The position numbers were made by a program, and so were the translations under genes. DNA of 64,000 nt from assembly GCA_020152595.1 (NCBI GenBank), contig JAIGNY010000132.1, positions 62,001 to 126,000 of the forward strand. Reading direction: 5' to 3'. Below, in pieces: positions 38,085 through 62,522 of this stretch (its first letter is position 1; every line of letters starts with the position of its first letter). The stretch is from Chiridota heheva. Its lineage: Eukaryota > Echinodermata > Holothuroidea > Apodida > Chiridotidae. The notes under the pieces are model-generated. The model searched no databases and was not told the DNA's origin. It worked only from the letters and a program-made list of their open reading frames with translations.

Positions 38085-38205
38085 ATCTCTTGTTCATGCT
38101 TTCATTACATCCCACTTAGATTATTGCAATTCACTGCAACTTGCCTGCTATCTCATAGATAAATTACAGAAAAACCAAAGTGCTGCTGTTAGGAGAAGTA
38201 AGAGG
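38085..38205 (+). mobile_element. Short LINE reverse-transcriptase fragment (CR1/L2 type)
   Basis: The plus strand reads LVHAFITSHLDYCNSL, then a diverged segment and DKLQKNQSAAVRR. This is the conserved thumb region of CR1/L2-type reverse transcriptases (an SRLDYCNSLL-like motif followed by LQ..QN.AARL). Only ~40 codons survive. Confidence 0.7.
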
Positions 38206-38367
38206 AGCCTATACAAGTAGAAACCAATCAGGAGCCAGTATTCCAGTCATGTGACTAATTTCTCATGAATATTCATAATTATGCAAATTTGTCATGAATA
38301 TTCATAGTTGTACAAATCTTTTGGAGGGAAGGGAATAAACACAAACACAATGTTTTAAATCAATTTT

Positions 38368-38403
38368 CTCTTTCTTATATTTGTGGTGGCTCTTATAAGA
38401 GCC
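38368..38403 (-). terminator. Histone-type mRNA 3' end, cassette 1
   Basis: On the minus strand, GGCTCTTATAAGAGCC (38403-38388) is a perfect 6-bp stem with a 4-nt TATA loop. It is preceded by ACCCAAA and followed by ACCACA, as in replication-dependent histone mRNAs. AAGAAAGAG (38376-38368) lies 11 nt downstream and matches the histone downstream element bound by U7 snRNA. Together these would give a cleaved, non-polyadenylated mRNA. Confidence 0.85.
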
Positions 38404-38436
38404 TTTGGGTTCTTTATCGATCGTCCGATCGATCTG

Positions 38437-38801
38437 CTACTGTCCTCCTCCGGTGGCTCTCGGCTGTCCTTTCCCGATGGCTCCCTGGTGTTCACCTTTG
38501 TCAGTAACTTTCTTTCATTCTGCAAGGGTCTCGTCGCCTTCTTTTGCTTTTGCCATGTTGAAAACAGCAAAGTTGAAAAAAGCAAAGTAAAATGCCCACG
38601 TGCATCCCCGAACTGTTGACATGTCTTGGTAAGCATGAATAATGGCTGCTGTAATTGCATCGTCTTCTGCAGGATGAAACCCACCTTTGAAACAATTGCA
38701 TCTGCTTTCGAGGTGGTCTATAACTTTATCGTAGTCGATAGGTCTAGGGCTACATTTTCTCAAAGAATAAACATTTGCTTGACTAAGATATCCCACTACC
38801 T
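38437..38801 (-). pseudogene. Cassette 1 ORF, broken paralogue of the ORF at 39086-39424
   Basis: This is a diverged duplicate of the neighbouring cassette-2 gene. Relative to that gene the start ATG is AGG, the next Glu codon is TAG, a one-base deletion shifts the frame near 38765, and a TGA cuts the protein before the shared tail. The conserved centre still reads HLESRCN, FHPAEDDAITAAIIHAYQD, and a hydrophobic helix AFYFAFFNFAVFNMAK. The stop shared with cassette 2 (38437-38439) lies 33 nt before the histone-type stem-loop. The hydrophobic segment sits where BH1 of Bcl-2-like proteins would be, but that is only a faint resemblance. Not a histone. Confidence 0.6.
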
Positions 38802-38805
38802 GATG

Positions 38806-38965
38806 ATGTGTTCGCTCTGAAGCTCAGAATGAAAAGAATGGATCAGGCTTGCTCTATTTATGCTTTTTGCTTCGATCTCTTTGACCAATCAGAAGCCAGA
38901 AAGGTACGATGCCATTTGAATTGGTGGTGCTCTTTTGAAAAGAAAGCCAAAAAGGTATGATGAGT
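38806..38965 (-). promoter_or_regulatory. Histone-like promoter module, cassette 1
   Basis: Read on the minus strand the module has CTGATTGGTC (inverted CCAAT, 38889-38883), GCATAAATAGAGC (TATA box around 38858) and CCATTCTTTTCATTCTG about 25-30 nt further, then GAGCGAACACATCAT before the start site. CATTC preceded by a pyrimidine resembles the histone cap-site consensus, although the last base is T rather than purine. The same module is at 63655-63803 on the plus strand and, interrupted, upstream of cassette 2. Confidence 0.7.
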
Positions 38966-39017
38966 TTGAATCTTTTAAAGGGAAAACAATAAACACATTA
39001 GTCTTAATTCAATTTTC

Positions 39018-39052
39018 TCTTTCTCATATTTGTGGTGGCTCTTATAAGAGCC
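39018..39052 (-). terminator. Histone-type mRNA 3' end, cassette 2
   Basis: The stem-loop GGCTCTTATAAGAGCC (39052-39037) is identical to that of cassette 1, with ACCCAAA before and ACCACA after it. The downstream element reads GAGAAAGAG (39026-39018). It starts 33 nt after the stop codon of the ORF at 39086-39424. Confidence 0.85.
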
Positions 39053-39085
39053 TTTGGGTTCTTTATCGATCGCCCGATCAATCTG

Positions 39086-39424
39086 CTACTGTCCTCCTCC
39101 GGTGGCTCTCGGCTGTCCTTCTCCGAAGACTCCCCAAAGTTCCCGAAGTTCGCCTTTGTCGGTAGCTTTCTTTGATTCTGCAGAGGTCTCGTGTTCTTTT
39201 GCTATGTCGAAAGCAGCAACGTGAAAGTCCCATATGCCGCCCCAGCAGTATGACACGTCTTGGTAAGCATGGACGATGGCTGCCGTTACATCGCCTTCTG
39301 CAGGATGAAACCGATTTTTGAATGGTGGTAAAGAGTTGCATCTGTTTTCGAGGTGCTCTATAACTCCAGGGCTCCATTTTCTCAAGAGTTCAAACATTAC
39401 TTTGGCTAAGACTTCCCACTCCAT
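39086..39424 (-). CDS. Cassette 2: intact 112-residue protein of unknown function
   Basis: This is the only fully open cassette gene. It begins MEWEVLAKVMFELLRKW and includes HLENRCNSL, FHPAEGDVTAAIVHAYQD, then CWGGIWDFHVAAFDIAKEHE, and ends RATGGGQ. The start follows GAAGCGAACACATCATC, the leader shared by the cassettes. Secondary structure looks helical. CWGGIWDFHVAAF weakly resembles a Bcl-2 BH1 helix (NWGRI-type), and Bcl-2-like genes are known in some adintoviruses (Polinton relatives), but one motif is not proof. It is not a histone, despite the histone-type promoter and 3' end. A 416-bp palindrome separates its TATA box from its start codon, which may block expression. Confidence 0.6.
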   Translation of the reverse strand: MEWEVLAKVMFELLRKWSPGVIEHLENRCNSLPPFKNRFHPAEGDVTAAIVHAYQDVSYCWGGIWDFHVAAFDIAKEHETSAESKKATDKGELRELWGVFGEGQPRATGGGQ

Positions 39425-39440
39425 GATGATGTGTTCGCTT

Positions 39441-39856
39441 CGAAACTCAGAATGAAAAGAACGGAGAGAGAGAGAGAGTTGAACACACAATTACAATGAC
39501 GGGGTCGTCGCCTGCGCGATTCGGTTATGATAGTACAAATGCTATCACGAACGCTTATCGACCGACGAGAACACAGGTGCGACGACGGACAGACATAACA
39601 TCGACAACCAAGTCAATGTCCACGCCTTTGATAACAAGTTGTGGTGCACTGGCAACTGGTTATCAAAGGCGTGGACATTGACTTGGTTGTCGATGTTATG
39701 TCTGTCCGCACGTCGCACCTGTGTTCTTGTCCGGTCGTATAAGCGCTTCGTGATAGCATTTGTACTATCATAACCGAATACGCAGGCGACGACCCCGTCA
39801 TTGTAATTGTGTGTTCAACTCTCTCTCTCTCTCCGTTCTTTTCATTCTGAGTTTCG
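39441..39856. repeat. 416-bp near-perfect palindrome in the cassette-2 leader
   Basis: Two ~203-bp arms (from 39441 and from 39856 inward) match with only a few differences around a centre near 39648 (GTGGTGCACTGG). Both ends are CGAAACTCAGAATGAAAAG, which is cassette leader sequence, followed by a GA repeat. It therefore looks like an inverted duplication built on the gene's own leader. Mirror-image open frames in the two arms (39496-39681 plus, 39801-39613 minus) share the peptide RTDITSTTKSMSTPLITSC. Confidence 0.92.
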
Positions 39857-40100
39857 GATCAAGTTTGCTTTATTTAAAAAAAAAAATAAGTAATTAAATA
39901 AAATATATAAAATATTTATAAAAATTTAAATAAATAAATAAATTTAAAAAAATGACGCAACAGTACAAGCATGGACGATAAGAACAAACATACAATAAAA
40001 CGATAAGAAAATTGACACATCAAACGATAAAACATGGACGTTACAAACAATTATGGACAATAAATATTACAAACGATAAACATTACAAAGAATGTTTTGA
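39857..40100. promoter_or_regulatory. Interrupted cassette-2 promoter and A/T-rich upstream DNA
   Basis: On the minus strand TTTAAATAAAGCAAACTTG (39878-39860) corresponds to the TATA region of the other promoter modules. It is followed by GATCC and then directly by the palindrome. The stretch further right is A/T-rich with recurring ACGATAA and ATTACAAA words. No CCAAT box is seen, so this promoter may be decayed. Confidence 0.5.
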
Positions 40101-40109
40101 ATCATTTTT

Positions 40110-40145
40110 CTCTTTCTTATACCTGTGGTGGCTCTAAAAAAAACC
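40110..40145 (-). terminator. Histone-type mRNA 3' end, cassette 3 (wobble stem)
   Basis: On the minus strand GGTTTTTTTTAGAGCC (40145-40130) keeps a 6-bp stem only if G-U pairs are allowed. ACCCAAA precedes it and ACCACA follows, as in the other two. AAGAAAGAG is at 40118-40110. The flanks are conserved even though the stem has drifted. Confidence 0.7.
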
Positions 40146-40176
40146 TTTGGGTTTTGTTTCTTTTTCTTCTCTTACA

Positions 40177-40584
40177 TCAGCACAGGGTAGAAGGGGCACT
40201 TGCAGTGCTGGTGATCCGTCTGGGTTGCCACGGATCTGTTTGTCTCCGTAACCTCTTCTGTCTGTTTTTTCTTCTCCCTCTGACTCTTGTCTTTTCTTGT
40301 TCTTCGTCCTCCAGTGCTGGCGGCCAGTCGTCTGCCATGAGAAATTCCTCATCAGGGCAGTAAAAACACTCACCCACTCGTCGTTAGAGAGGACGATTTC
40401 TTCGTCCTCGTCCTCCATCTCTCTCTCTGCACTGCGGCAACTCTAAAAGGCGACTGTCGTCCTCGTCCCAGTCGCTGCTTGCAGAGTCTGTTGCTGAGCT
40501 CCATGAGCTAGGCGGGTAGCGTGCCATCGCAGCGTCGAAGTTCCATGGCTCCTCGTGGCGTTGCCATATCTCTTTGTCTTCCAT
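40177..40584 (-). pseudogene. Cassette 3: acidic then basic protein, frame broken at an AG run
   Basis: From the ATG at 40584 the frame encodes MEDKEIWQRHEEPWNFDAAM and a Ser/Asp-rich stretch (SSDWDEDDSRLLELPQ). It is thrown out of frame at an AGAGAGAGAGA run near 40425. Two downstream frames remain open. The one ending at 40177 (acidic ECFYCPDEEF, then basic RGRRKNRQKRLRRQ) stops 31 nt before the stem-loop, the same spacing as in cassettes 1 and 2. The other would run through the stem-loop, so I prefer the first. No known family. Its promoter region (40600-40700) differs from the shared module. Confidence 0.5.
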
Positions 40585-40822
40585 GTAGACTTTCACTCGA
40601 AAGTGATGAAACAGAGTTGTGATTTTGGTTGTAGGTTGGTTAATCTAACACAGCGAATGATTGAAAATGATCAAAGTTAGTACTTTTATTAGTCTCTAAA
40701 TAATACTTACTATGCCTTGATTGTTAGACAGGCACGTGGCTGTATACTTACCCCCAATTGGTTCGTATCACGCCTGCCTGTTGACACTTGTCTAGCTCAC
40801 GCCCAAGTTATCACGCCTGGTT

Positions 40823-40959
40823 GTCGAACTTCTACGGTAGCCTCTACGGTACCCTCAAACTCTTTTTAAATGTCTTTAAATTCATTTTTCTCTTTTTTAA
40901 CATTTATATGCGAGGGTAAAGTACCTGCCCCAACCAACGTAGTGGTAGCGTAGGAGTCA
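40823..40959. repeat. Left inverted repeat of the Polinton region
   Basis: This matches the reverse complement of 63516-63639: GTCGAACTTCTACGGTAGCC at the outer side, ATGCGAGGGTAAAGTACC in the middle, and CCCCAACCAA with AGTGGTA at the inner side. The spacing (22.8 kb) and the Polinton genes in between fit Polinton terminal inverted repeats. However, similarity resumes outside it (38806-38965 against 63655-63803), so the true end may lie further out. Confidence 0.7.
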
Positions 40960-41016
40960 TGCCACGATTTTGTACTCCTTCCGCCCTCATTTTTTTTTCA
41001 AGCTTGATTTTTTCTC

Positions 41017-41962
41017 TTAATGCCAGAAAATAAGACGCAGCTCATATGGTATAATAACAATAACAAACATATTCATGCAGAGGGTTCTTTTTTTTTTTTT
41101 TTTTTGTTTCTCAATGATGATGGGTGGTATGTCCAGTTTTAAATTTACCTTGCGTCTTTTTGATAAGGTGGGAGGTGGCAACGACGACGGTGAACGGGGT
41201 CTTTTCTTTGCTTTTGAATGTTTTGCTTTCATCTGTTCGCACATTTCGTCCATGTTACTGGGATTTTTCTCCAAGATGGGTACTTTGACCAGTTGCTAAT
41301 GTTCTATTGCAAATAGCCCTTCCATGATTGCAAGTTTGCACCATTGGTACAGGTTGAAAGAAATCCCTTTTTTCTCCGGGTATGACGGTCTAATGACGGG
41401 TGGTGTGTCCGTTTGGCTTGCTGATGTTTTGCATTGCGTAGTTGTAATGGCTTATGTCCATGAGAATGCTTTCACCTTCTGTGGTCAGACCGATATAAAT
41501 CTGTTTTCCCAGACACAAACGTAACTTTTTGGGGTGTGACGAACCGCTCATGTGACAGGCGCCGTTGACGTAAGACGTATGGTAATGCAAGGCCATTTCA
41601 AATACCATGTTTTCGTTCTTGCAGAGTTCATCCCAAACGCCTTCTTCCATGGCGATGCCTTGAGCCGTGACTCATAGTATTGTGCAGGGGTTGGCTTTGG
41701 CATACTTGCCGAGGTGTACATATTTAATGCTTTCAAACTGCGATGTATACACGTACACGTCCTCTCCTACGGTATAAGCTCAGGTCACCAATCCACAACT
41801 GTCTCTTACTTTGTCGAAACTCTGCATTTTCAAAACTCTCTTTAACGGTATGTTGTCGGGACCCGAAAAAGGTGGTGAGAATTGCATTTCTCCCGTATGT
41901 TTGTTATGGCAGTACACATTACCGTTCCTCTCGTTTACTTTATTCCAACAGGTTTGGGCCAT
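41017..41962 (-). pseudogene. Polinton accessory gene(s), decayed, unknown function
   Basis: Several minus-strand fragments follow each other: 41962-41780 (starting MAQTCWNKVNERNGNVYCHN), 41650-41390 and 41274-41017. The first loosely resembles a WW domain (Trp, then GNVYCHNKHTG, then Pro). The last has a basic KKRPRSP...SKRRKV signal like a bipartite nuclear localisation sequence. Stops and shifts separate the pieces, so I cannot say whether they are one gene or three. They lie between the left inverted repeat and the PC4-like genes. Confidence 0.35.
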
Positions 41963-42055
41963 GATGATGATAATGTGCCTTTCTCAAAGAGTTGTGAAAG
42001 AATGGTGGGTGTTTTTTAATTCAGGCACTTTTTGAACTTTTTTTAGTAGAGGGCG

Positions 42056-42388
42056 CTAGTAAATTATCGGCGAATGACATCCTGCTTCATTGAAAGATAT
42101 GTTTTTTGAGGTGTTACACATATTCGCAGAAGACACATGTTTCATCGCTTTTCTGGTCTTTACGTCGTCTTCTTCTTCGTCTTTCGAAATACATACTTGA
42201 CGAAAACTCTCTTGACGTGCCAAAATCATCCATTGTTCGGGTGTGAGAGCGATACCTATCTTGGTAGGTACTTCACCAATAGCAGGAACGTTGCTGTATT
42301 TTCTGATATGTACGTAGAGATTGTCTTTGAAAGAAGAGATCGTGACATAGGTATGCTGTCTGAGCACCACTTTGAACTTTTCTCCCAA
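42056..42388 (-). CDS. PC4-like protein, second copy
   Basis: Residues 1-60 read KFKVVLRQHTYVTISSF, then YVHIRKY, PTKIGIALTPEQW. This order fits the single-strand-DNA-binding domain of transcriptional coactivator PC4/p15 (strand pair, VxIRxY, PTKKGIxLTxEQW). An acidic linker (KDEEEDDVK) and an unrelated tail follow. Upstream in-frame sequence extends slightly, so the start is uncertain. With its neighbour at 42446-42766 it forms a tandem pair next to the protease. In a virus-like element it could act in transcription or replication; that is inference. Confidence 0.6.
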   Translation of the reverse strand: MGEKFKVVLRQHTYVTISSFKDNLYVHIRKYSNVPAIGEVPTKIGIALTPEQWMILARQESFRQVCISKDEEEDDVKTRKAMKHVSSANMCNTSKNISFNEAGCHSPIIY

Positions 42389-42445
42389 ATGGATGCGATG
42401 GGTACTGTCCTTTAATTTCTGGAGTGTGTCCGTTACCAGATGAGC

Positions 42446-42766
42446 TCATCGAGTTATTACTGCCCATTGCTCGAGTGCGAGGGCAATACCTTTCTTGGTC
42501 GCCACGGAAGTCATTCCGACATTAAGGTGTGTAAAATACTGCCGTACGTGAATGTTGAAGCCACAGACGGTGAGGTAGCGTTCGCCTCCTAAAGCAACAG
42601 CTTTCTTGTCTTGTGTGCCGGCACGGACATCGGTTAATCCTCGCGTAGTGATTGCTTCAAAGTCTGAGTTTTGACTGAATATTGCACACCGTCGTCGTCG
42701 CCTTTTTATAAGTTTTAAAAAACAATATATGTACAATACCATGCGCTCTCTAGTAAAAAACAGCAA
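42446..42766 (-). CDS. PC4-like protein, first copy
   Basis: The C-terminal half reads LGGERYLTVCGFNIHVRQYF, then TKKGIALALEQW, matching the PC4/p15 fold better than its neighbour does. The upstream part is basic (KRRRRR) and may be leader rather than protein; the open frame starts without an ATG context I trust. It ends 58 bp before the next PC4-like frame. The two share little outside the motif residues, so the duplication is old or the genes were acquired separately. Confidence 0.6.
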   Translation of the reverse strand: MLFFTRERMVLYIYCFLKLIKRRRRRCAIFSQNSDFEAITTRGLTDVRAGTQDKKAVALGGERYLTVCGFNIHVRQYFTHLNVGMTSVATKKGIALALEQWAVITR

Positions 42767-42912
42767 TTCACTACTTTAGTCAGAGTCTGTTGTTTCGACA
42801 AGGAGACGGTGTTCCGTTCCGGTTTTGGTCATTTCAGATGACTTATCATTGTTTTTTGCATAGAGGGAGTTAATAAAAAAAAAACATCTTACAAATCAAT
42901 TAAACGAACGTC

Positions 42913-43345
42913 TTAACCATAATGTTGAAGTACAAATGTAAACACAGCCTCATCGTTGCATTCCTTGTCTTTCCCAAAATGAGCCATGATGCCGTTCATG
43001 TCCGAGCCGCGTGCCCTATGAAACAGATAATAAATACAATAATGACCGCATACGCTAGAGGTAGGACTTTGAAGCGGTTTGTGATTGTAAACAAACTGTT
43101 GATTTTTAAGATACGTCGAATAAAAGAAGCATCGGGGGTTCGCCGTAGGAGTCAAAATATTCCCAAGAACCGATTTCGGGTACGTAAATAGCGACCCAAT
43201 GCCGGCCCGATTTTCAACTCAGATCCATGTTGTCCACCATCACATCACACTTAGACGTTCCAATGGTGAAAGTAAGTGATCTGCAGCATGAACACCGGCG
43301 AACACATCGCACACGAGCCATCACGTGTAAGCGTCTTTGCTCAAC
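42913..43345 (-). pseudogene. Polinton cysteine protease (adenain/Ulp1-like)
   Basis: This is the capsid-maturation protease of Polintons. The catalytic His is in HWVAIYVPEIG (near 43190), followed by the acidic position in EYFDSYGEPP, and the Gln/Cys pair in LQSPTSSVCGHYC (near 43060). A one-base shift separates YGEPP from the Cys half. Upstream, VFAGVHAADHLLSPLERL, then a shift and a TGA, precede the His segment. All catalytic residues survive but no single frame spans them. It follows the major capsid gene directly. Confidence 0.8.
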
Positions 43346-44667
43346 ACTCGAACAATATCGGACAGTCTCTATGATTTCAATTGGTAAAAAGTAGATGATG
43401 TTGCGGTTTTTATCTATTTCGATGATCTTCTCGAATTCGGCATAGATGAGAAGGATGGTGGTGGATTCCACTGCCTCTGCAAATTTAAAATCCACACAAA
43501 GATTTCCTCGTTTGTTGACCATGTAGTGTTGTCCGTGGGATCCGTCGGGTGTCAGGTCGAAAGCGAACGACGTGTAACCGTCCAAAAAATCCGTCGGAGT
43601 GATGTCCACACCCCCCATTGCCGTACAAACAACTAGTGGCAGAATACAATTGAAGGTAACTGCGAAGAGTTAGATCTGATTCAAATTTGGGGGAAAGTGG
43701 CATTGAAGGATACTGTTTCTCATCAACGTGAAGCGCGATATAATTCAGTTTGAAAGATTGGAAACGAAATGGATTCTTCTTGTAAGCGCCGTTGAAAGAG
43801 GCTGTGTCCACCAGAAAAACCACAATCCTTTTTGGTAACTCACCCAGAAATACATTGTCTCGTTGAAAATCTTGGGTTCTGGTGCGTATGGTAATATTTC
43901 GGATGATGGTGCGTCGGATCTTGTACTTGGCCGGTTCTCTGTTGAGGGTGACGAGGTCGCTGAGCACATGGGTGTCGCTGCACGTCATTTTACGCAAGTA
44001 GAGAATGGCAACCAAGATAATCACGCGGAAATCGGCAGCTGCAGTTTTTGACGTCAAACAAGAAGAGTCCTTACGTCGTTGCAGTTTAATCGTACTTCCA
44101 CACCCAGTATAAGCACCTTATTTTGAGCAAATATGTCGGAGTGAAGGGGTCCCATCATCTCGAACACTTTGCTGTCTTTTGTTTTAATAAAACGTTCTTT
44201 AAGTCCCCAGTTGGGGATGGTTTCGGCAGTCAAATCGTTGAAGTCCATATGTGCTGCAGTGTCTTTGAAGTAGAACTGAGACTGCAGATGTATTTCTTTG
44301 GCTTCTCTGTCGTAGTTGAGCAAAGTCTCAATCATCGCTCTGTAAGGGTACGTTGGCATCGAGTCGCTGATGAGTTTGCCACTGAGGGCTACGTCTAGTT
44401 GTGAAAATATCGAATGCAACAACAGACTGACAGGAGCCACCGCTTCATCGGCGTTGTCAATGGTGTTACAATCGCTCCCATCTGCTTTGATGATTTTCAC
44501 TTTGACGTAAAGTTGGGTGTTGTTGATATCCAGATATTTGCTTTCTGTTCCGGGAATGAGGAAATCGATTGGCCCTATGGAGTTTAATCCTCCAAATGGA
44601 CGGTATTCGACCTATTCGCTGTCTTCAATCACCATTTGTGTCGGAGGAATACTAAACAGCTCCATTT
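43346..44667 (-). pseudogene. Polinton major capsid protein (double jelly-roll)
   Basis: The minus-strand frames read, in order: MELFSIPPTQ at 44667 with an in-frame TAG near 44612; PVSLLLHSIFSQLDVALSGK and TYPYRAMIETLLNYD in the 44500-44054 frame; LFLGELPKR-like and FNGAYKKNPFRF in the 44057-43618 frame; and FAFDLTPDG, IYAEFEKIIEIDKNRNI in the 43618-43346 frame. These are hallmarks of the Polinton hexon-like capsid protein. One stop and two frame shifts make it inactive. It is followed by the protease, as in other Polintons. Confidence 0.9.
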
Positions 44668-45331
44668 CTGATTTAGAGCAAGGCATGGAGTGATTGTAAA
44701 CATAGCAGAACTGCTAATGAGGTTATAATCTGACTATCATTCTTCTTATAACAGTTCCACGTAGTGTAAACGATTCTATTTCTTTTTTAAGGCCGACGTT
44801 CAGGCACGAATGCTCGGACTGTACCGAGGTGTGCTTGATCGTGGTCGTGTTGGTGGATGTTCTCGAGCGTATCGGGCCAATGTTTCTAAAACATATCTCC
44901 CTATTCTGTTCAACGGTTTCTTTTTGCCACGATTGGCTTTTCGTTTTGCAGAGCTGCGTCCGGGTCGCTATCGTTTCTTACTGCGGAGAGGCGAAAATCC
45001 ATGAATAATAGATGAGACTGGTAAGATTGCCCTTCCCGGAGTATCGAAAGGTTGATGCGGGGATGCACCGAATGATGATATACTCTATATATGGGTGCAG
45101 CGCCACTTCGGCCGGCTTATCACTCTGTTGTTTTTGGCTTCGTTTTACATCTAAAAAATAATTTTGGATATTCAATTTTAAATCTGGACTTTGCGGAACG
45201 TCTTTAGATCATGCATGGAGAGGTTAGAACTGCTTTTAAACTGTTTTTATCGTGTAATCTACAAATTTTTGTGAATTAATCTTATCTAATAGTCAGCCTT
45301 ATTTTACTGTATATAGGCCTATGTACGCATA
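44668..45331. other. Polinton sequence upstream of the capsid gene, no gene assigned
   Basis: Short frames on both strands (for example 44810-45004 plus) match nothing I know. The packaging ATPase expected in Polintons is not visible here or elsewhere. The right edge is the start of the LINE insertion. Confidence 0.4.
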
Positions 45332-48300
45332 CACTGTGGACAACATCAACAATTGGCTACTGTTACATGATAAGTACCTGGGAATTCGAAAGCTGTTTTG
45401 AGCAACCCGTTTCAATGGTAAATATGTCGCTGTCAGACTCGATTTTATTACATAGAACTGTATGTGTGCTGTTTTCTAATTGCAATATTTTACCCGAGTT
45501 ATTAAGTAGATTAAAAACATTGAATATACTGTCAGAATCATGTCATGGACACGAAATTCACTCACATCCCTCAATTTGTTATTTTAACAAGACCCGCCGT
45601 AAACGCCTTAGAGGGAAAAGAGGGAATCGCGGGGGACAAAAACGTAGAATTCGTACTATTATCTCATCTCACCAGCCCGCTCATACTTACAGTAATGTGC
45701 AAATGTAAATAATCTTGTCAAAATTCCGCCTGGATGTAAGAAGTAACTAGATATAAACATCTGGAATGCTCAATCATTGTGCAATAAAACTGTGACAATC
45801 TATGACTATATCCTCGATTCTGATGTGGTCATCTTAATTATTTGTGAATCTTGGCTTGGTGAAGAAAATCCTGTGGTGATTGGAGAGTGCACACCATCTG
45901 GGTATTTCCTTTTGAACTACCCCTGAATTGGTGATAAACACAGTGGCATTGCTTTAATTTACAAATCTCATTTGAAACTGAGCATTTAACCTTTTGCAGT
46001 TAATCTAATATGTACACAACTTTTGAACTTGCATGTGTGGCTGACATTGACAAGACATTTCATCTTGATGCTATATATCGCCCCCCCTCCCCCCCCCACC
46101 TTCTCATAGGAATGGCTTTACTGTAGCCAAATTCCATGTAGAATTTGAACATTTTTTGTGTGACTTAGAAAATATGCCTGAAAAGCATTTGATTATGGGT
46201 GATTTAAACATTCACGTTGATGATCCAAGTAAACCTGAAGTTTTGCGATATTTAGCTCTGCTTTCTAAACATAATCTCCACCAGTTTGTTGACAGGCCTA
46301 CTCAAGAGGTCCGGTCATATTCTTGATCATGTGATCTGTGGACTTGTTGGTAGAATGCAATGTATCTCCCAACTTATATGGTTCCGATCATTACATGATT
46401 GAATGCTCAATAAATAAGCTGAAACCTGCACCAGAAAGGAAAGCTGTCACAATAAAAAAAATTAATGATCTCGATCTAGGTGTTTTCAAGATTAACCTTA
46501 TTTAAGAGCTTAGCGGTCTCAATATGTTGAAAGATCCAAATGTTCAAGCTACCGAGTATAATACAAGGGTGCGCAGAGTTCTTGACAAACACTGTCCGGA
46601 GCAGACACGATTTCAACGAACGATTAAATGTCCTAAATGGTTCAACGATGATGTCCGGTCGGCCCGAACAAAACGCCGCAAATATGAGCGTAAGTGGAGA
46701 AAAACCCTCAGTGATACTGATTGCTTGAAATATCTTGAGCAAAATATAGTTGTAAATGAACTTATTGTTTAATCCAAAACAGGGCATTTCAAAGGTGTTT
46801 TGGCAAATGCTGATGCAAAGACAATGTACCGTACAGTTAACTCACTTCTCAATAGTTCCACCAAGGCTTTACCAATCTGCCGCTCAAATGAAACTCTCAG
46901 TAATAATTTTGCCAATTTTTTTACAGAGAAAGTGGCAAAAATAAGGTCTGAACTTGACGTTGAATGTGTTAATGTAAATATATCTTTTCTTGATACCAGT
47001 AAACAATGTAATGATGATGTATTTCTGCTTGATTCTGAAGATGATTTGATGATTGCTGATTTACAGTATATGCACAGTAATGATATCTTTGCAAATTTCC
47101 ACCCTGTAGATGAAGCTGAGATTCTACATATCATTTCTAAGATCCCAAACAAGACCAGTTCTCTTGACCCACTGCCCACTTGGCTCTTGAAGGAATGTGT
47201 TGACATAGTAGCTCCTATAATCATGTCTCTTGCAAATAATTCATTTTTATCTGGTTGTTTTCCATCCATTCTTAGGAACGCAATTATTTCTCCTCTTATC
47301 AAGAAGCCCACCCTCAATCCGGACGTTTTGAAAAATTATCTACCCGTCTTCAATCTTCCCACCCTTGGCAAGATCCTTGAAAATCCAGCAGTCTCTAGGT
47401 TTATTGAATATCTTCATTTAAAACATCTTACTGAAGTTTTTCAATCTGCTTACAAACCGGCACATAGTACTGAAACTGCGTTATTGCATGTTAAGAACGA
47501 TATATTAAATGAGTTATATTCGGGTAGAGTTGTTTTACTTATACTTCTAGATATGTCTGCAGCCTTCGATACCACTGACCACACTATTCTTATAAACAGG
47601 CTTCAGTATGCGTATGGTATCAGAGGTTGTGTTTTGAACTGGTTTAGATCTTATCTAAGTGATCGCAAGAGTTCAGTTTGTATCTCTGGTAGTTATACTA
47701 CTGCCCATCCTCTGAAATATGGTGTTCTCCAAGGATCTGTTGCAGGTCCTCCGATCTTCAATGCCTATTCGCAGCCTGTTACCCGCATTATCAAACTCTT
47801 CAATGTTGCTTACCATATATATGCTGATGACACTCAGCTATATGTTAGCTTCGATCTTAAAAAGCCGGGTAATAGGGAAGCTCCCCAAGCTCGCTTGTCA
47901 AATTGCATTGCGGCGGTTAAAGACTGCATGCTTCGTAACAAACTTAGACTTAATGACACCAAAACTAAATTTTTGATCATTTCATCAAAAAAACAAATGC
48001 ATTCCATCAAGTCCATTGATTTAAGGATCTGTGGGTCTGTGATTGTTCCTTCATCTTCCGTTAAAAATGAAGGTATCATGTTTGAACCTTGTATGAATAT
48101 GAATATGAATTCCCAGGTCTCTTCAATATGTCGTACTGTTAATTTTCATTTGCGTAATATTTCGAGAATCAGACGGTACATTGATCAAAATACTTGTGCT
48201 CATGCAGTGCGATCTTTCGTCCTTTCTCGGCTGGATTATGGCAACTTCCTGCTTGGTGGCATATCACGTGCAAACCTTCAACACTTGCAAAGACTTCAAA

Positions 48301-48913
48301 ATCGTGCAGCGCGCATGATTTGTTCTGTTGATAGACGTACAAACGCTTCCCCCCTCTTGCGTGTTCTTCATTGGTTGCCCATCCAGCAGAGAATTGATTT
48401 CAAGATCGTACTGCATGTGTACAACTGCATTAAAAAAAAATGCACCTTCATACCTTCAAGAATTGCTGCATATTTATAAGCCTGGATGCGTTGGTCTAAG
48501 ATCTGCCAACAAGGATGTCACTCGCTTTGTGGTGCCAAGAACTAATCGTGTCAGTGGGGACTGCGCCTTTTTTGTCCTGGGACCACCTTTGTGGAATAAT
48601 CTACTCATTGCAATCCGTCAGGCTCAAACTGTTTATACTTTTAAGAAGGCCCTTAAGACTCATCTTTTTCCTACTGATTAAATTTCATGCTGCTATAATA
48701 TTTAATTTCTTGTTTTATTTATCTAGTTTTTTGTTTTATTTTTTTATCACTTCTTTCAAGCTTTTATATTGTCCTGCAAATGTTTTTAAAATTTTTGATA
48801 TTGTATATTAAGAGTTTGTCTATGTATTATCAATTTGATTGTAAAGCGCTTCAATCCACAGAGGGGCGCTATATAAATAAGTTCAATAATAATAATGATA
48901 ATAATAATAATGG
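45332..48913 (+). mobile_element. LINE retrotransposon (CR1/L2 group) inserted in the Polinton
   Basis: Plus-strand element of ~3.6 kb. An endonuclease region with several stops (MGDLNIHVDDP near 46200; GSDHYMIE near 46390) precedes a long reverse-transcriptase frame. The 3' end reads GTAAAGCGCTTCAA, GGGGCGCTATATAAATAA and an (AAT)n tail, typical of this group. TGTACGCATA (45322-45331) and TGTACACATA (48914-48923) flank it and may be the target duplication, with one CpG-type change. It splits the Polinton between the capsid gene and the basic protein gene. Confidence 0.85.
46800..48479 (+). CDS. LINE reverse transcriptase, long intact frame (559 codons)
   Basis: This is the reverse-transcriptase part of the LINE. 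Visible motifs in order: ILHIISKIPNKTSSLDPLPT (fingers), FQSAYKPAHSTETALLHV, LLDMSAAFDTTDH (first catalytic Asp), GVLQGSVAGP, YADDTQLY (catalytic Asp pair), then SRLDYGNFLLGGI and LQRLQNRAARMI (thumb). The frame closes with LHWLPIQQRIDFK and a frameshifted tail continuing at 48328-48681. The endonuclease upstream is broken by stops, so the element as a whole is dead although this frame is intact. Confidence 0.9.
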   Translation: MANADAKTMYRTVNSLLNSSTKALPICRSNETLSNNFANFFTEKVAKIRSELDVECVNVNISFLDTSKQCNDDVFLLDSEDDLMIADLQYMHSNDIFANFHPVDEAEILHIISKIPNKTSSLDPLPTWLLKECVDIVAPIIMSLANNSFLSGCFPSILRNAIISPLIKKPTLNPDVLKNYLPVFNLPTLGKILENPAVSRFIEYLHLKHLTEVFQSAYKPAHSTETALLHVKNDILNELYSGRVVLLILLDMSAAFDTTDHTILINRLQYAYGIRGCVLNWFRSYLSDRKSSVCISGSYTTAHPLKYGVLQGSVAGPPIFNAYSQPVTRIIKLFNVAYHIYADDTQLYVSFDLKKPGNREAPQARLSNCIAAVKDCMLRNKLRLNDTKTKFLIISSKKQMHSIKSIDLRICGSVIVPSSSVKNEGIMFEPCMNMNMNSQVSSICRTVNFHLRNISRIRRYIDQNTCAHAVRSFVLSRLDYGNFLLGGISRANLQHLQRLQNRAARMICSVDRRTNASPLLRVLHWLPIQQRIDFKIVLHVYNCIKKKCTFIPSRIAAYL

Positions 48914-49060
48914 TGTACACATAGGTGTGAGAGGAGACGGGAGTAGAGGCGATGCTAGTCTCGGTGTTGAACGTTTACGAGGTCTCTTCTTCTTCTTTTT
49001 CTTTTTTTCTATCATGGATCACTGTCTTTGACGTGGAAAAAGTGTTTACAATTTGTCACT

Positions 49061-49671
49061 TTATGCTGAGTAATGCGATGCGGGAGTGTACGACGAAACA
49101 GGAGAGAATGCGAGTTGTCGATGCACGAGGGACTTCAGATGCGAATCACTTAACCTAGAAGAATTGCCCCAACCACTGCTGCTCCGACAACGACTGCTAC
49201 TCTTACTACTAGTAGGTGTCGATGGAGTTCTTCTTCTGAACGATAACTTCAGCACTTTTCGGCCGCATGTCGGACGAGATGGTTTCTTCATCGTATCTTC
49301 CGTGGTAATGACGGTTCGTGTTCGTGCCGTACGGTTTATAACACTTTTCCCATGTCCTCTTTGTCCTCCTCCTCCGCCTATCTGTTGGGACAATGCCTCT
49401 TTGGGACGCGTCATGGCTTTTCGTTTCATATGTCGACCTGCTTCTCTCGCTCTGCGAGGGGCTGATTGTTTGATGTTTTCTCTGGCCATAACGTCTCCTA
49501 GAATACTGGCTCCCGTGGTCAAAACCTCTTTTACAACTTCTTTACCTAAACTCATGGTTCCTTTCTTGAGGAACGGTATGGCCATCCTAACAATCCGGAA
49601 AGCATTCTAACGAGACCGTAGCCTCTTTGATTTCCTGGCCTGATAAACACGAGTAGACGTCCGTCGGCCAT
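49061..49671 (-). pseudogene. Polinton small basic virion-type protein (PX-like)
   Basis: It starts MADGRLLVFIRPGNQRGYG at 49671. A frame shift near 49613 leads to AFRIVRMAIPFLKKGTMSLG, KEVLTTGASILGDVMA and SAPRRAREAGRHMKRKAM, then a basic Arg/Ser/Gly-rich tail. Small basic proteins with a G.G..LKKG..LGKEVL.TG segment are regular Polinton residents near the capsid genes. The role is presumed structural or DNA-binding. The CR1/L2-type LINE inserted just beyond its end. Confidence 0.65.
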
Positions 49672-49779
49672 GATGTTTGATCTTCGTCTTGAGCGATAAT
49701 GAATAATACGACGTTTGCGGCAACATTATATATCTCTCCCTACAAGGAACGTTGTTGACTAAAATGCAGCCTGACGATT

Positions 49780-50484
49780 GATCTTTCTGTTGTGAAAGGT
49801 ATTTTTGCCCTATCCGTCATGGATAACGATTTTGATCGAATCGATGGAATTTCGCTTTACGGGATGATAGGCGATGATCGGTGGTGCCACGTCGACGGCC
49901 TGACCCCAAAATTTTGATAACAGCACTCCAAAATGTTGTAACAACGGCACTTCTTGATCACCTACGGTTTGAGGAGTAATGATGTCGGTGTACAGAAACA
50001 GGTGTTCGATATTCTCCGTCTTCCAAAGATAATGGGTGGTTATCGTATTCTGTGTAAAATTGCAAGGATCCTCACATCCGAAACTTTGGCATATTTGTCC
50101 ACAAAGTGTTACAACGTGTCCACTGTTTGCTCCCATTCTCACATGTCCTTTGTAAGTGGGGGTCCGTCCAATATTAAACATATTTTGGTGTGAATTAGGC
50201 AAGTAATTTTTTGCTAAAAGCAATGCAAAAGTCACTTCTCTCAAGGGCTGCAAGTCGACCTTCACTTCATTTCTCTTGCTTGCCGCCCGATAAGAACATT
50301 AACTTGTCTCGTTACAGATTTGGTACCACGAATAAGGGTAGCTGAAACTTGCTAATCCGACTCCCCATATGCCATCGAGATGTAGGGGTCTTGAAAGAAT
50401 GTTTCGAAATCCCGTCACTGTGTTTTGTGGATAAACGTTCATGGAGCCATTGCTCGGCAGAGTCACGTAAAACGATTTGGCCAT
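49780..50484 (-). pseudogene. Polinton minor capsid protein (penton-like)
   Basis: It begins MAKSFYVTLPSNGSMNVYPQ at 50484, continues WGVGLASFSYPYSWY, and then has a stop near 50299. The frame from 50265 carries HLFLYTDIITPQTVGDQ and IIAYHPVKRNSIDSIKIVIH, ending in a TGA near 49810 just before the expected end. This is the single-jelly-roll penton protein of Polintons. Only two stops interrupt it. A partial duplicate of its C-terminus lies directly upstream. Confidence 0.85.
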
Positions 50485-50539
50485 GGTAACGTCTAGAGCG
50501 TTAATGAAAAGAACGACGTCGACGGTAGCAATATATCTC

Positions 50540-50823
50540 TCCTACAAGGAACGTTGTTGACGAAAATGCAATTTGACAATTGATCTCCCTGATGTAAATG
50601 GTATTTTTTGCCCCGTTTTGTCGCGGATAACGATTTGAATCGAATCGATAAGGTTTCGGTTAACAGGATGGTAGGCAATGATCAATGGTGTGTTCTCTAC
50701 GGCTTGGCCTCGAACGTCTAATGCCAAAACTCCGAATTGTTCCAGCAAAGGTACTTCTTGATTTAGCCATTGTAACGTCTCACAGTCGAATGATGGTATT
50801 GTCACTTTATAATTTACCAACAT
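50540..50823 (-). pseudogene. Partial duplicate of the penton-like C-terminus
   Basis: It reads NQEVPLLEQFGVLALDVRGQ, then IIAYHPVNRNLIDSIQIVIR, KIPFTSGRSIVKLHFRQQ and a stop. It parallels 49980-49760 and keeps the C-terminus that the complete gene has lost. The sequence after its stop (GAGAGATATAT onward) also resembles that after the downstream gene, so gene end plus spacer were duplicated together. It is joined directly behind the integrase chromodomain. Confidence 0.75.
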
Positions 50824-51960
50824 CGGTGACCCAACTGTTGAATTTGGAAGGGTAACCGTACCATTTTACCAGATATTCTTTCGTTCCGTCTTTACGTTTT
50901 CTTATCTTCTCGATTTAATAAACAGCATCTTTTTTTTTTTTTTACTGACCTTTAGTAATTCCTCTTGATGAAAGGTACTGGCCACTTCTTTTCCTTCGCG
51001 ATCTTTAACCGCATACGCGACGGGTTGACAGCGGATCACTTTGCCGATTACAAATACTTCTTCAGTCCATCGTGGCAGATAGCCTATGCGAAACAGTCGT
51101 GTGACCATGCTCAAACGAACGACGTCTGCTGTTTGTAAGGTTACATCTTTCTTCTTCTTCTTCTTTAATGATTTACTGTATAAAGCTTCCTAGACCTCCA
51201 ATTCATTGCGCTAGTGGACATTTTCCGGAGCCCGTCTGATGCTGCGATGACGAGCACCGTTGTAGGCGACAAGAAGTTTGGGTAACACGTCGATGTATTT
51301 GTGACAGCTGTTTGCGGTAAAGTAGCGCCACATTCAAGTTTTGAGCGTACGGTTAAATCTTTCCACCGTGCTGGCTTTGATTTCGTTTTCTGTCGAGAAG
51401 AGTTTTACACCTTGTTCTTTCAAATAGGTCTGTACTTGACATTTATAGAATTTGGTTAATTTGTCTGTCTGCAGCTTCCGCGGTAACCGCCCTAAATCTT
51501 TGAACAACTTTTTGAATGCAGTCAAAAGCGATACTCCTGATTTGTTTTTGAGAGGTAATGCCCATGCGAATTTGGAAAATACGTTTAAACATTTCAACAA
51601 CCATTTTGTCCCTTTGTTAAACCTTGCGTAAGCACTGAGATCGACGAGATTGGCTTGCCATTGATTGTCGATACCATTTACGATAACTCTGTTTCTATCG
51701 TACTTATGTTTCAAAGTTTTGTGTAAAGTGTACGTGTCTTGTTTTGCAAGCCACGTTCGTACCACCATTCGTTTTAGATTCAAAAACCGTTTCTTGGCCG
51801 CGGCGTACATGCTGTCGGCTCCTGCGAAGCCAGCGGGATGCGACAGATTGTAGTAGATTTCTCTTAGTATTTCTTCCATCGTTGGTGACACCACGTTCTG
51901 AATCACAGTCCACCGCAACAAGCGCTGACACAGTTGATGTTTTTTTTATTGAATTGCGTA
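50824..51960 (-). pseudogene. Polinton integrase (DDE, with chromodomain)
   Basis: The retroviral-type integrase core is read from about 51921: NLVDLSAYARF (first Asp), LQTDKLTKF (second Asp), ENEIKASTVERFNRTLK (Glu). A stop follows at 51334, then LLVAYNGARHRSIRRAPENV and another stop near 51210. The C-terminal part has a beta-barrel segment (FRIGYLPRWTEEVF, 51110-50960) and a chromodomain (KEYLVKWYGYPSKFNSW, about 50870). All three catalytic acids are retained. The enzyme would insert the element into host DNA; here it is broken by two stops. Confidence 0.88.
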
Positions 51961-52199
51961 AGGTTACCCAAGATAATGCTGTACCTGCCATATCGGTTTC
52001 TGTTCTGTTTCTGTTCTCTCTAAGAAAAGTTCTTGGCATATACATTGGTGTTTCCTCTTCTTCTTCACGAGTCATTGGGATTTCTTCTTCCACAGGAATA
52101 TCTTCTTTCTCAACGTCTCCCGTCTGATTTAATCATCGAAGTCGTTTCCACATCTCTCTATTACCGACCAAGTCGGGGGAGCAGATGAGGCTATGGATG
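51961..52199. other. Gap between the divergent integrase and polymerase genes
   Basis: A short region from which integrase (minus) and polymerase (plus) diverge. An acidic minus-strand frame (MTREEEEETPMYMPR) overlaps the integrase start in another frame and may be its displaced N-terminus. No clear TATA box was found. Confidence 0.4.
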
Positions 52200-54896
52200 T
52201 CAATCAACACGACGATGATGAAAAACTTACCGTCGAGAGTTGCTATCGTATCGTGGACCCGAAGACGCCATATTCCCAAATATAACTCGGAGGCAAATGA
52301 ACACGTTGTGCGGTTCGACGGGGAAAGAATTGGGCAACTTGCCAACCAACATGAGAACGTCATCAACGTATTGCATGCTGTTTTCGAAAATCTCATCAAA
52401 CGGCTGGTAGAAGGTTTTGCTGCTCAATATCTAGGGGTTTCGGATTCATTCACCCAGTCTAGAGTAACCGATATGGGTTCAACTCATGCGTAGAGATCAA
52501 ATGAGCATATTTTTCGAGTTTTGCAATCAAAGACTGCTTTCGTGCTCAACGGAGACATTGAAATCAGAGTGATTCACATCGAGATGCCTCAAGGAAGTGG
52601 ACTTACCAACATAAAAGACTGGACTCTGAAAAAACGCTCTATCGTCCGTATTGCAGACAAAGATCACCTCTGTCTAGCCCGAGCTCTAGTGACCGCCAAA
52701 GCCCGCATCGACAAGGAGAACGATAACGCCGTCAACTGGGAAAACATTCGTCACGGTTTTGGTGAGCAAACAAGACTCACCAGAGAGTTACACAAACAAG
52801 CCGGCGTTGCCTTGGCTCCTTGTAGATTGGAAGAAGTAGAGCGTCTTCAAGCCATAATACCCGATTACCAAGTGAATGTCGTTACATCAAACCCACACAA
52901 CTTGTTTCTATTCAGGGGACGTCCTCGTTCGAAAAAACTTCATCTTTTCTACCATGATAATCATTTTGATGTTGTCACCTCACTTCCTGGACTACTGAAT
53001 ACACTGTAACATTTGTGAAAAAGGGTAAGAAGTCTTTGACCACCATCGTTGCCATAAGGTTTGTAAATGTTGTTTCAATGCAACAAAAGAGGAATGCCAG
53101 TTGACCGAATGGATACATTGTAAAGATTGCGACCGATCCTTCAAAAGTCCGACATGTTTTACTAATCACAAGAGGATCCTGAAAAGAAGCAAAGTCACGA
53201 TCAAACGTAAAACCAAAATAACACCACGCTCGATCTGTCAACGCATCTGTCGTTGTACTACTTGTGGAGTAACTTTCAAAGGGCAGCACAAATGTGGTCA
53301 ACTTTACTGCAGAAACTGTGAGAGTCACCAACCATACGATCATCTTTGTTACATGCAAAAGATCAAAGGAGAAAGAGGAGGAGGAGAGGTAATTATCGAC
53401 GACAAAGAAGCTCGTGATATTCTCTGCCTGGAAGACGAGCCAATGAAGGAAAAGAACCTTCCTCTGAAATACACCTTTTTCTATTTTAAAAGCATGCAGG
53501 AAGACAAGCTCAACCACGGAGGATATTTACACGTGCCAAACTGTTGTGTAGCACATCGTGTTTGCTTGACCTGTATCCAAAATAAAAATATTCAAAAAGA
53601 TTGTGTATCATGTGGCAAACGAGAGCATGTCTTCTCAGGAAGAAACACTCAAAAATACTTTTGCAGTTGGTTGCTTTCTTCAGAAAACAAAGGGAGCACA
53701 GCCATCGCTCACAACATGAAAGGATACGACGATCATTTTATTCTCGATCACATGAATAACATTGGAATGTTCCCCAACGTTGTGATGATTGGAGCCAAGC
53801 TGATGAGCATCGATTTAAAAGAAAAAGCCAGGAACAAGAAAAAGAAAGATGTCACAACCCTAAGGATCATCAAATCGTGTAACTTCATTCCGGCTCATCT
53901 CTCTTCTTTGCCCAAGACGTTTGGGTTGACCGAAAAGAAGAAGGGTTATTTCCCGTATTATTTCAACACTCAGCTTTATGAAAACTACATCGGTCCTTGG
54001 CCTGCAGTCGAAAACTACGATCCCAATCACATGAAACCTGCTCAATACAACGCTTTTTTCGCGTAGTACGAAGAACAGAAGAACAAGACTTTTGACATGG
54101 CTTGTAAAATGTACCAGTGCTGTTGAAGCAATGTAGAACTACTCCAGCTAGAATGTTTGCGTTTCCGAAAAGAGTTTGTTGAAACTACGGGCGAAGATCC
54201 CTTCGCAAAATGCATCATTATTTCCATGGCCTGCATGCGCATGTTTCGACAAAAGTTCCTTCATACCGATACGATCACCCTGGTTCCTCATTCGAGGTAC
54301 GAGAACGACATACAATCAGCGAGACCTGTAAACGAGACTGACTGAACAACAAAGGTCTTCGAGAAGGCTGGAAACTGGTGGAAATCTGGGAATGCGAGTT
54401 CCGAGACGAAATGGAGAGAGACCCGCAGATGAAAGACTTCGTCGATAACCTGAAACTGAGCAAACCTCTCCGACCCCAAGATGCATTCTTTGGTGGACGG
54501 ACCAATGCCATCAAGCTTCATGTAGTCATCAAAGAAGACGAACAAATCAAATACGTCGCCGTTTGCTCGCTCTACCCTTACGCCAACAAGTATTGTAAAT
54601 ACCTTATCGGTCATCCGGATATCATCACAACCCCGGACACCACCGACGTACGTAACTGATCAAATGCAGTCTTGCCTCTTCGTGGTCTGTACCATCCAGC
54701 ACTCCCGATCCGATGTCAAGGAAAACTCATGTTTCCGTTGTGTGCCACCTGTGCAGAACTCTGGCAAAAGACGATGTAAACACGCTGATGAACAACGAGC
54801 GCTTCACGGGACGTGGGTGAGCTGCGAGTTACAGAAAGCCGTAGCCATGGGATACGAGGTGTTATATATCGACAAGGTGTGGCATTTCAAGGAGAC

Positions 54897-55334
54897 GGTG
54901 CAGTATGTTTGTTTGTTTGATGAGGTCTTAACAGCACCACGACAACGAGGGTCAAATTGTGCCTGAGAGGTCAGATCATTTTAGAGGTGGAGAGAAAAGA
55001 AAACAAGGAAAAAATGAGAGAAATTCAAGAACAAAAGTCAGAAAGCTGTGATTGAGAGAGAAGGTGCATGGGTAAAACAAAACAAAGTAGGGAGGGGGGT
55101 GGAAGAGGAGAATCAAATATGGTTGTAAAGGGAAGCATGATAAAGGAAGAAGATAATTTTATCCGGAGGATTTTTTTGAAAGAACTCAGCAATTGAGTTG
55201 TAGGGAGCGAGGGAAGCTCTGGGAAGGTTGTACAGGGGGCAAGCAAGGAGAACGTGATGGATAGTGAGGATGCAGTGGCAATTGTTACAAATGGGTTGGG
55301 CGGGAACCAATAAGGAGGTGGGAGGTGCAGTATG
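54897..55334 (-). mobile_element. 5'-truncated LINE copy 3 in the polymerase gene
   Basis: The 416-bp insert (54908-55323) is the 3' end of the I-clade-like LINE seen at 12631 and 18727. It is flanked by the 11-bp duplication GGTGCAGTATG (54897-54907 and 55324-55334), and polymerase sequence continues on both sides. The Cys-His cluster (CNNCHCILTIHHVLLACPLY) is intact. The 3' tail is CAAA-like, as in copy 2. Confidence 0.93.
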
Positions 55335-55887
55335 ATCCTGAAACGGGAGAAGCTGGTTTGTTCACGACTATCAATACGTTTCTGAAAATGAAACAGGAAG
55401 CCAGCTGGTGGCCAGAAGGCTGAGAAACCAAAGAACAGCGTCGTCGGTACATCGACGAGTACGAGGCCTGCGAAAAGATCAGACTGGTCTATGCCAACAT
55501 CGAACAAGAACGAGGGAATGCCAGCGATGGCTAAACTGATGCTCAACTCCTTTTGGGGAAAGTTCGGACACCAAAGTGCACTTACCAAGACGGAATTGAT
55601 CAACACTCTTGAAAAATTCTACAAGCTGTTGACGGACAAATCGAAACAAGTGAAATACGTGCAGTTTCACGGCGAATTCACCGCCCGCATCCAATGGGTC
55701 AACACGAACAATACATCGAATTATCGCCCAACACAAACATTTTCAACGCGGCTTACACCACGGCTCACGCCAGTCTTAAACTATACAGCGGCCTCTACTT
55801 CGACACTGATTCCGTGATTTACGTCAGCCGGCCGGGAAACTACAATCACCCCTCGCCAACTTTCTCTGCAACATGACAGACGAGCTG

Positions 55888-55979
55888 GAGAAACCTTACA
55901 GTGCCGAAAGCTACATCACCGGGTTTGTTTCTGGAGAAACCTTACAGTGCCGGAAGCTACATAACCGGGTTTGTTTCTG
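55888..55979. repeat. 46-bp tandem duplication in the polymerase gene
   Basis: Two adjacent 46-bp units start at 55888 and 55934 (GAGAAACCTTACAGTGCCG...) and differ at two bases. As 46 is not a multiple of three, the duplication shifts the polymerase frame. Confidence 0.9.
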
Positions 55980-56194
55980 GAGGCCCAAAGAACTACGCTT
56001 ACAAAGTCTGTTTGGCCAGAACAGGCGCAGTCGTCGTGGGGGAGTGCAAAGTCAGAAGCATCACTTTGAACCATAACACCATTCAATCGGTCAACTTCGT
56101 GGCGATGATCAATATGGTAACGCACGTAGATCCTGGAAAAAGCCAAGCCTGGAAAGCAACGAAGAACTCATCGCCCCTGTCCATTATTCTCATA

Positions 56195-56372: not shown

Positions 56373-56399
56373 ACATCAGTTGGTAAATGAACTTGTCCC

Positions 56400-62496: not shown

Positions 62497-62522
62497 ATTG
62501 TATTGTATTGTATTGTATTGTA
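62497..62522. repeat. (TATTG)n microsatellite
   Basis: Five consecutive TATTG units. Confidence 0.9.

Follow-up and report, generated by a model that had tools for sequence, protein, structure and literature searches.

Three consecutive minus-strand genes in a 64,000-nucleotide stretch of the Chiridota heheva genome (GCA_020152595.1, contig JAIGNY010000132.1, forward-strand positions 62,001–126,000; hereafter, the window) end in elements resembling the 3' ends of histone genes. Together with a fourth gene, R, they occupy the ends of a Polinton/Maverick transposon; we refer to the three genes with their 3' elements as cassettes c1, c2 and c3 (Table 1). The original prediction, made from the sequence alone, had recognized three such elements here, and a covariance-model search with RF00032, the Rfam family of histone 3' stem-loops (gathering score 34, used as the cut-off), found all three at the predicted places, two of them over the cut-off and the third at 23.8 bits. 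In c1, the stem-loop (38403-38388) was followed by ACCACA and by a U7-type site, AAGAAAGAG, at 38376-38368. Folded in isolation, each of the three elements forms a 6-bp stem and a 4-nt loop; in each case 0 of 200 shuffles folded as well. The flanks and U7-type site that had been predicted were also common to all three: CCCAAA before the stem, ACCACA after it and (A/G)AGAAAGAG from 11 nt past the stem. The c3 stem-loop looks like a decayed copy, because most relatives at this position have GGCTCTTTTCAGAGCC. A candidate fourth element before c3 (block A, 40959-40843) was rejected as its folding was at chance level (179 of 200 shuffles were equal, and 49 of 200 for its right-hand twin).

Among the three genes that had been predicted, only c2 has an open frame, which encodes 112 aa. 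The c1 gene has lost its ATG and contains stops, and c3 has an in-frame stop. Sequence identity between c1 and c2 was 75% overall and >90% in the last part, and indels were mostly multiples of three. The claim that these proteins are not histones was confirmed in the products tested: Pfam searches at E up to 10 gave no histone match for c2, for the c1 and c3 pieces, for part of R or for 20 c2 relatives, and none was found at E up to 0.01 for the open R protein of a second element (C2397, see below). Five aligned relatives of c3 were acidic proteins of 129–156 aa with a Cys-rich end, most of which end in TQTxNCxLCRLCPFC; we take TQT to be the dynein light chain motif. A word-based search of 5.8 billion proteins detected no c2 relatives, and viral contigs scanned for relatives of the polymerase, integrase, capsid and c2 proteins contained none. 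Exact stem-loop matches in viral contigs came from two unrelated phage-like contigs without an Rfam match and were discarded. Two candidate relationships of c2 were also rejected: a weak match to p300 acetyltransferase (E 0.16 with two sequences, 1.6 with c2 alone) was gone with a 20-member profile, and a likeness to Bcl-2 seen by eye found no Bcl-2 match by Pfam (E up to 10) in 20 members. An AlphaFold model of c2 (pLDDT 54.5) was too poor to use. Functions of the c2, c3 and R proteins, as discussed below, are suggested only by the place of their genes and the signal that they carry.

The original prediction placed the cassettes next to a Polinton; instead, they lie inside it. The complete element spans 38194-65412 (27.2 kb including later insertions), and is delimited by terminal inverted repeats (TIRs) and by two copies of the 6-bp target site duplication (TSD) GTTAGG. 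TIRs combined with a 6-bp TSD are a criterion for Polinton/Maverick elements, and both were found in two elements, that of the window (GTTAGG) and C2397 (AGGATA). The right TIR of the window element (about 64663-65412) is 86% identical to the left one over 533 bp in inverted orientation, and each TIR contains a c2-type gene: the left copy is the broken c1, whereas the right copy has an open frame (ATG near 64702, stop at 65052). The stem-loop of R begins at 64299, past the window end, and its RF00032 score was 34.8 bits (L041:294-340). That a virus-like transposon owns these genes, as had been proposed, is borne out by the TIRs, the 6-bp TSDs and the Polinton genes present in other copies.

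Table 1. Features of the cassettes and of the Polinton that carries them (window coordinates; a dot indicates no strand).
Feature	Position	Strand	Details
Cassette c1, histone 3' element	38362..38408	-	RF00032 37.5 bits, E 2.3e-7; over cut-off
Cassette c1, open piece of broken c2-type gene	38518..38799	-	
Cassette c1, promoter block	38803..38966	-	ATTGG (inverted CCAAT), CATAAATAG, TCATTC 29 nt downstream
Cassette c2, histone 3' element	39012..39057	-	RF00032 35.6 bits, E 1.2e-6; stem-loop 39052-39037
Cassette c2, gene, open frame	39086..39424	-	112 aa; no histone match
Cassette c3, decayed histone 3' element (apparent)	40104..40150	-	23.8 bits, below cut-off; stem-loop 40145-40130, two G-U pairs
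Cassette c3, gene remnant	40189..40584	-	In-frame stop
R gene, first part	63804..64000	+	Whole open reading frame 63804-64223, 139 aa, basic
Polinton element, window part	38194..64000	.	TIRs, TSD, polymerase, integrase
Left TSD copy GTTAGG (6 bp)	38188..38193	+	Right copy 65413-65418, beyond window
Left TIR (inner edge approximate)	38194..38842	.	Contains broken c1
Palindrome, near-perfect, 416 bp	39441..39856	.	Between c2 TATA region and cap region; later damage
Broken capsid protein gene (presumed)	43214..44359	-	Matching 450-aa open frame in another copy
Minor virion-type protein frames (presumed)	49061..50823	-	Conserved in other copies
Polinton integrase (rve)	51334..51879	-	Pfam PF00665, E 3.9e-7, just under cut-off
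Type B DNA polymerase gene pieces	52584..55817	+	PF03175 at 53353-54066

A relative with both ends, the C2397 element (902302-920407, 18.1 kb), has both TIRs and the TSD AGGATA at 902296 and 920408. From its left end, it contains c2 with a stem-loop, c3 (139 aa) with a stem-loop, an open reading frame (ORF) with PC4 domains, a protease-like ORF, a 450-aa frame that is open and matches the capsid pieces of the window, minor-protein ORFs, integrase, polymerase, R (156 aa) with a stem-loop, and the right TIR. The c2, c3 and R frames are all open, and their stem-loops are all over the RF00032 cut-off (37.5, 37.9 and 35.7 bits, respectively); the capsid, integrase and polymerase genes of C2397 had no RF00032 match over the cut-off. 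Polinton proteins were found in all three interiors fetched from other copies, one of which was picked on account of a capsid piece previously noticed close to it. RF00032 had no match over the cut-off in the interiors of three copies (L045-L047, together 22.9 kb), and in L048 the sole such match was that of R. Within the stretches examined, only terminal genes thus carry the histone signal. In L045, one ORF has PC4 transcription coactivator domains (L045:1254-2087(-), PF02229, E 8.6e-25), and the start of another (L045:33-1247(-)) resembles a WW domain by eye, although Pfam gave nothing for it at E up to 0.01. A different arrangement was observed in a 14-kb stretch (G000:C2236:405800-420000; L043, L044) with inverted 935-bp arms that are 98% identical, each of which has a c2-type gene and two histone stem-loops; this stretch is perhaps an exception or a non-autonomous derivative.

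We further checked the occurrence of this gene family in the 1.1-Gb host assembly. At least 152 matches to the c2 protein were found, the window's own counted, which is a lower bound as 150 of 398 candidates were scored. The best 30 c2-type loci, including the window copy, were examined; they were chosen by c2 protein, which favours intact copies. At least one RF00032 match over the cut-off was present in 24 of the 30. The c2 stem-loop itself was over the cut-off in 18 loci. In 17 loci, another such stem-loop lay upstream at the position of c3; this is an undercount, as the sequence of most loci stops about 1.5 kb from c2. The gene preceding this second stem-loop was read in part of the loci. 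With a looser pattern allowing one mispair, a c2 stem-loop was recognized in 25 of the 30; four of the remaining five had near versions and one had lost it. Genuine histone genes at related loci had been named as the finding that would speak against the prediction; none was seen in the 30 loci, where the c2 family stood ahead of the stem-loop, a partial test given that c2 protein was used to choose them. TIR-type sequence occurred near the gene in 26 of the 29 loci besides the window's, although in some of these only an internal repeat matched. Pairwise ratios of nonsynonymous to synonymous substitution (dN/dS) among 22 open c2 genes had a median of 0.43 and were <1 in 99.4% of 163 pairs, 68 of the 231 pairs having been excluded with dS outside 0.1–2 or not computed. 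Coding constraint acts on c2, judging from these ratios. At one locus (L028:13-1144), a TIR end directly abuts polymerase pieces of another Polinton, and one Polinton seems to have been inserted into another.

Comparison with histone genes of the host identified the probable source of the signal. RF00032 had at least 74 matches in the genome, at least 71 of them over the cut-off (histone and cassette loci together; a lower bound, with 75 of 217,804 candidates scored). Among the loci opened, we recognized H3 and H4 genes and an H1-like tandem array by reading their sequences. The array (G000:C1229:1424-25390) has a period of ~1.43 kb in its regular parts, and the two units read look like H1. 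Host 3' ends scored 43.2 (H4), 40.8 (H1) and 37.9 (H3) bits. In blastn alignments, the H3 and H4 3' ends were 79–89% identical to those of the cassettes over 56–94 nt; AACCCAA, GGCTCT....AGAGCCACCA and AGAAAGAGAAAA were shared by H1, H3, H4 and the cassettes. The host ends carry AACCCAA, GGCTCTTTTCAGAGCC, ACCA and AGAAAGAGAAAA, as the cassettes do, and the purine-rich downstream AAGAAAGAG of the cassettes is the same as in host histone genes, the pairing with U7 being putative. By this comparison with host H1, H3 and H4, the signal of the cassettes is the histone signal of the host itself. In addition, an H4-type histone 3' end (L005:1148-1551) occurs in a 3-kb locus that has no recognizable H4 gene; a fragment of a Polinton polymerase gene lies within a few hundred bases of it.

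Where the promoter of the cassettes is legible, it consists of a TATA box and a TCATTC start motif located 29–30 nt apart, and the c1 promoter block is repeated at 63642-63805(+). Of 42 stem-loops, 19 had this TATA-to-TCATTC motif in the preceding 900 nt, compared with 0 of 46 Polinton interior stretches. We had considered a histone-type promoter for the cassettes; this designation was dropped in favor of TATA plus TCATTC because host H3 and H4 promoters do not align with them and no paper was found on sea-urchin histone promoter motifs. For the regions downstream, stem-loops were sorted by sequence motif into a c2 group and a second group that was mostly c3, plus c1 and about three c2-type copies. 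AATAAA or ATTAAA occurred within 250 nt past the stem-loop in 2 of 22 members of the c2 group (chance 0.31) and in 9 of 23 members of the other group (chance 0.42); by this count, poly(A) signals are not enriched after the stem-loops. Mean column identity over the stem-loop, ACCACA and U7 site was 0.95–0.99 in both groups, and over the next 23 nt it was 0.95 in the c2 group and 0.83 in the other.

Taken together, the original prediction is supported overall, and the SLBP/U7 processing and replication timing that formed part of it are what the sequences suggest. We consider it likely that the terminal, probably early, genes of this Polinton family are equipped with the histone 3' signal of the host; their mRNAs would then be cut by SLBP and U7, lack poly(A) and peak in S phase. 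The anatomy of cassettes and elements is observed directly, and 3' processing and S-phase timing are proposed from it. The family carries three kinds of small gene at its ends: c2 lies within the TIR or adjoins it, c3 follows directly inward, and R is found at the end with the polymerase. All are self-contained units, apparently without introns, that end in CCCAAA, a stem-loop (6-bp stem, 4-nt loop), ACCACA and AAGAAAGAG, a signal absent from the capsid, integrase and polymerase genes examined. SLBP and the U7 small nuclear ribonucleoprotein (snRNP) may cleave the transcripts a few nt past the stem. The resulting mRNAs, lacking poly(A), would persist and be translated chiefly during S phase, or in oocytes and embryos that are rich in SLBP. 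Probably early, host-directed proteins of the element would then be limited to DNA-replicating cells, which would suit an element with its own DNA polymerase. Capture from histone genes of the host is the most likely origin of the cassette 3' ends. With confidence only slightly better than even, we further suggest that the transposon family took over the histone 3'-end machinery such that early terminal genes are coupled to replication and structural genes are not, which would amount to an early/late switch at the level of RNA processing.

Several observations weigh against the proposal that the cassettes use this signal in this way. The copy in the window has decayed, with c1 and c3 both broken and the leader of c2 split by a palindrome. 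The dN/dS values between c1 and c2 (0.57–0.77) are only moderately low, and third-position changes are not in excess. No relatives that could indicate conservation across species were found outside the host genome in the protein databases and viral contigs searched. The loop is UAUA in the c2 and R stem-loops, compared with UUUA in the Rfam consensus and UUUC in host histones. The promoters of host H3/H4 and of the cassettes could not be aligned, and the TATA-TCATTC motif was absent at 23 of the 42 stem-loops. That the c2 signal is so uniform does not prove constraint and may reflect recent copying, because the next 23 nt are equally uniform. In addition, the C2236 stretch has no recognized Polinton protein between its arms. 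Finally, the terms early and host-directed reflect gene position and an analogy to adenoviruses.

The alternative that fares best accepts that the signal is used and assigns it another purpose, either maternal storage with SLBP in oocytes and early embryos or escape from poly(A)-based or piRNA (PIWI-interacting RNA) surveillance. We regard it as possible, at clearly lower probability than S-phase timing. A transposon has to act in the germ line, the sequence itself cannot separate timing from escape or maternal storage, and nothing in it speaks against this alternative, although the host genes that share this 3' end are presumably expressed in S phase.

It is unlikely that the 3' ends are passive passengers, captured along with a histone 3' end, with present transcripts ending at ordinary poly(A) sites. 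Homology to host histone 3' ends does reach past the functional core, as expected after capture, the mixed group has poly(A) signals at about the chance fraction, and the c2 signal is not more uniform than the sequence behind it. However, the C2397 element has kept the signal on genes of three kinds that differ in sequence, and poly(A) signals in the c2 group are below the chance fraction.

Use of the palindrome as a DNA signal (replication, packaging or integration), with an only apparent likeness to histone RNA, is very improbable. At the DNA level, the stem-loop of c2 and R, GGCTCTTATAAGAGCC, forms a perfect palindrome, which fits such a role; that at the c3 position is not perfect, and in the copies read the stem-loop stands in sense orientation after a gene, with ACCACA and the U7 site kept alongside as in host H1, H3 and H4. 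Least probable of all is that these are host genes with histone-type 3' ends that a Polinton jumped into or beside, as the original framing, the many copies in the genome and the C2236 cassettes might suggest: c2-type copies inside both window TIRs and the c2, c3 and R genes of C2397, all bounded by TSDs, refute it for these two elements, and TIR-type sequence near most other loci and Polinton proteins in every interior fetched argue against it elsewhere.

Apart from the cassettes, other established or presumed Polinton components were examined in the window element and its other copies. The ORF at 43214-44359 presumably encodes a capsid protein; it had no Pfam or PDB sequence match and was conserved in L045, L047 and, in part, L037. 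We take the ORFs at 49061-50823 to be minor virion-type proteins, one of which is duplicated (49685-49958 and 50490-50762), as it is in L046 and L047. The integrase had 330 homologues at E up to 0.001; among those that carry an organism name, the best-ranked comes from a sea cucumber. Together with an M1-peptidase exon, these integrase homologues mark the host as an animal. PF00665 was over its cut-off in L045, and the polymerase domain PF03175 was also matched in L048. A weak match to the adenovirus-type cysteine protease (PF00770, E 0.0088) was below the cut-off, and no FtsK-like ATPase was found by Pfam among the 10 ORFs scanned, the remaining ORFs not having been searched for FtsK. The 39441-39856 palindrome gave rise to a mir-576 match, which was below the cut-off of that family and was rejected. 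An open 551-aa reverse transcriptase frame of LINE (long interspersed nuclear element) type lies inside the Polinton (46824-48479), and a tandem repeat of ~27 bp is located just outside its left end (36676-37424).

In its type B polymerase, rve integrase, weak match to an adenovirus-type protease, presumed capsid ORFs, TIRs, 6-bp TSD and size (18–27 kb), the family is similar to Polinton/Maverick (adintovirus-like) elements. It differs from known Polintons in that its terminal genes end in histone-type 3' signals. Neither "histone" nor "stem-loop" occurs in the main texts of PMC4028283, PMC8097293 and PMC11071308, and "histone" does not occur in that of PMC3671162. A search for papers with both "histone stem-loop" and "Polinton", and for viral or transposon genes with histone 3' ends, found none, with subscription papers and repeat databases outside its scope. 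The bare presence of the stem-loop in the Polinton-like group is nevertheless already on record, which qualifies the earlier statement that no description was known. In the parts of PMC12220804 concerned with RNA genes, an Rfam-type scan of a collection of Polinton-like virus and virophage genomes counts six histone 3' untranslated region stem-loops, none of them in 1107 cryptophyte elements. In the section on non-coding RNA genes, the six are left undiscussed and are assigned to no host, gene or function; the main text uses the word "histone" once. Unlike the present family, that section describes no recurrent gene set and no match to host histone genes. What we did not find described is the recurrent use of the signal on several terminal genes, its match to host histones and its absence from structural genes.

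Like replication-dependent histone genes, the cassettes are short, apparently single-exon genes with a 3' stem-loop, flanks and a U7-type element closely matching those of host H1, H3 and H4; unlike them, they encode products without a histone match, are carried by a mobile element and have no demonstrated histone-type promoter. In animals, the histone stem-loop is regarded as almost exclusive to replication-dependent histone mRNAs. Parvo-, papilloma- and adenoviruses depend on or induce S phase, and the logic shared with the present family would be expression tied to host DNA replication; we know of none of these viruses that uses the histone 3' signal. In histone genes, according to the relevant part of PMC1924863, SLBP binds the hairpin and U7 pairs with the downstream element. 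If our interpretation is correct, transcripts of the cassettes would be missed in poly(A)-selected RNA, and a possible meaning could be offered for the six stem-loops left undiscussed in that part of PMC12220804. The histone mRNA regulon could then be joined from outside, by a mobile element, and Polintons would gain a simple means to follow host DNA replication, making the timing of their life cycle testable.

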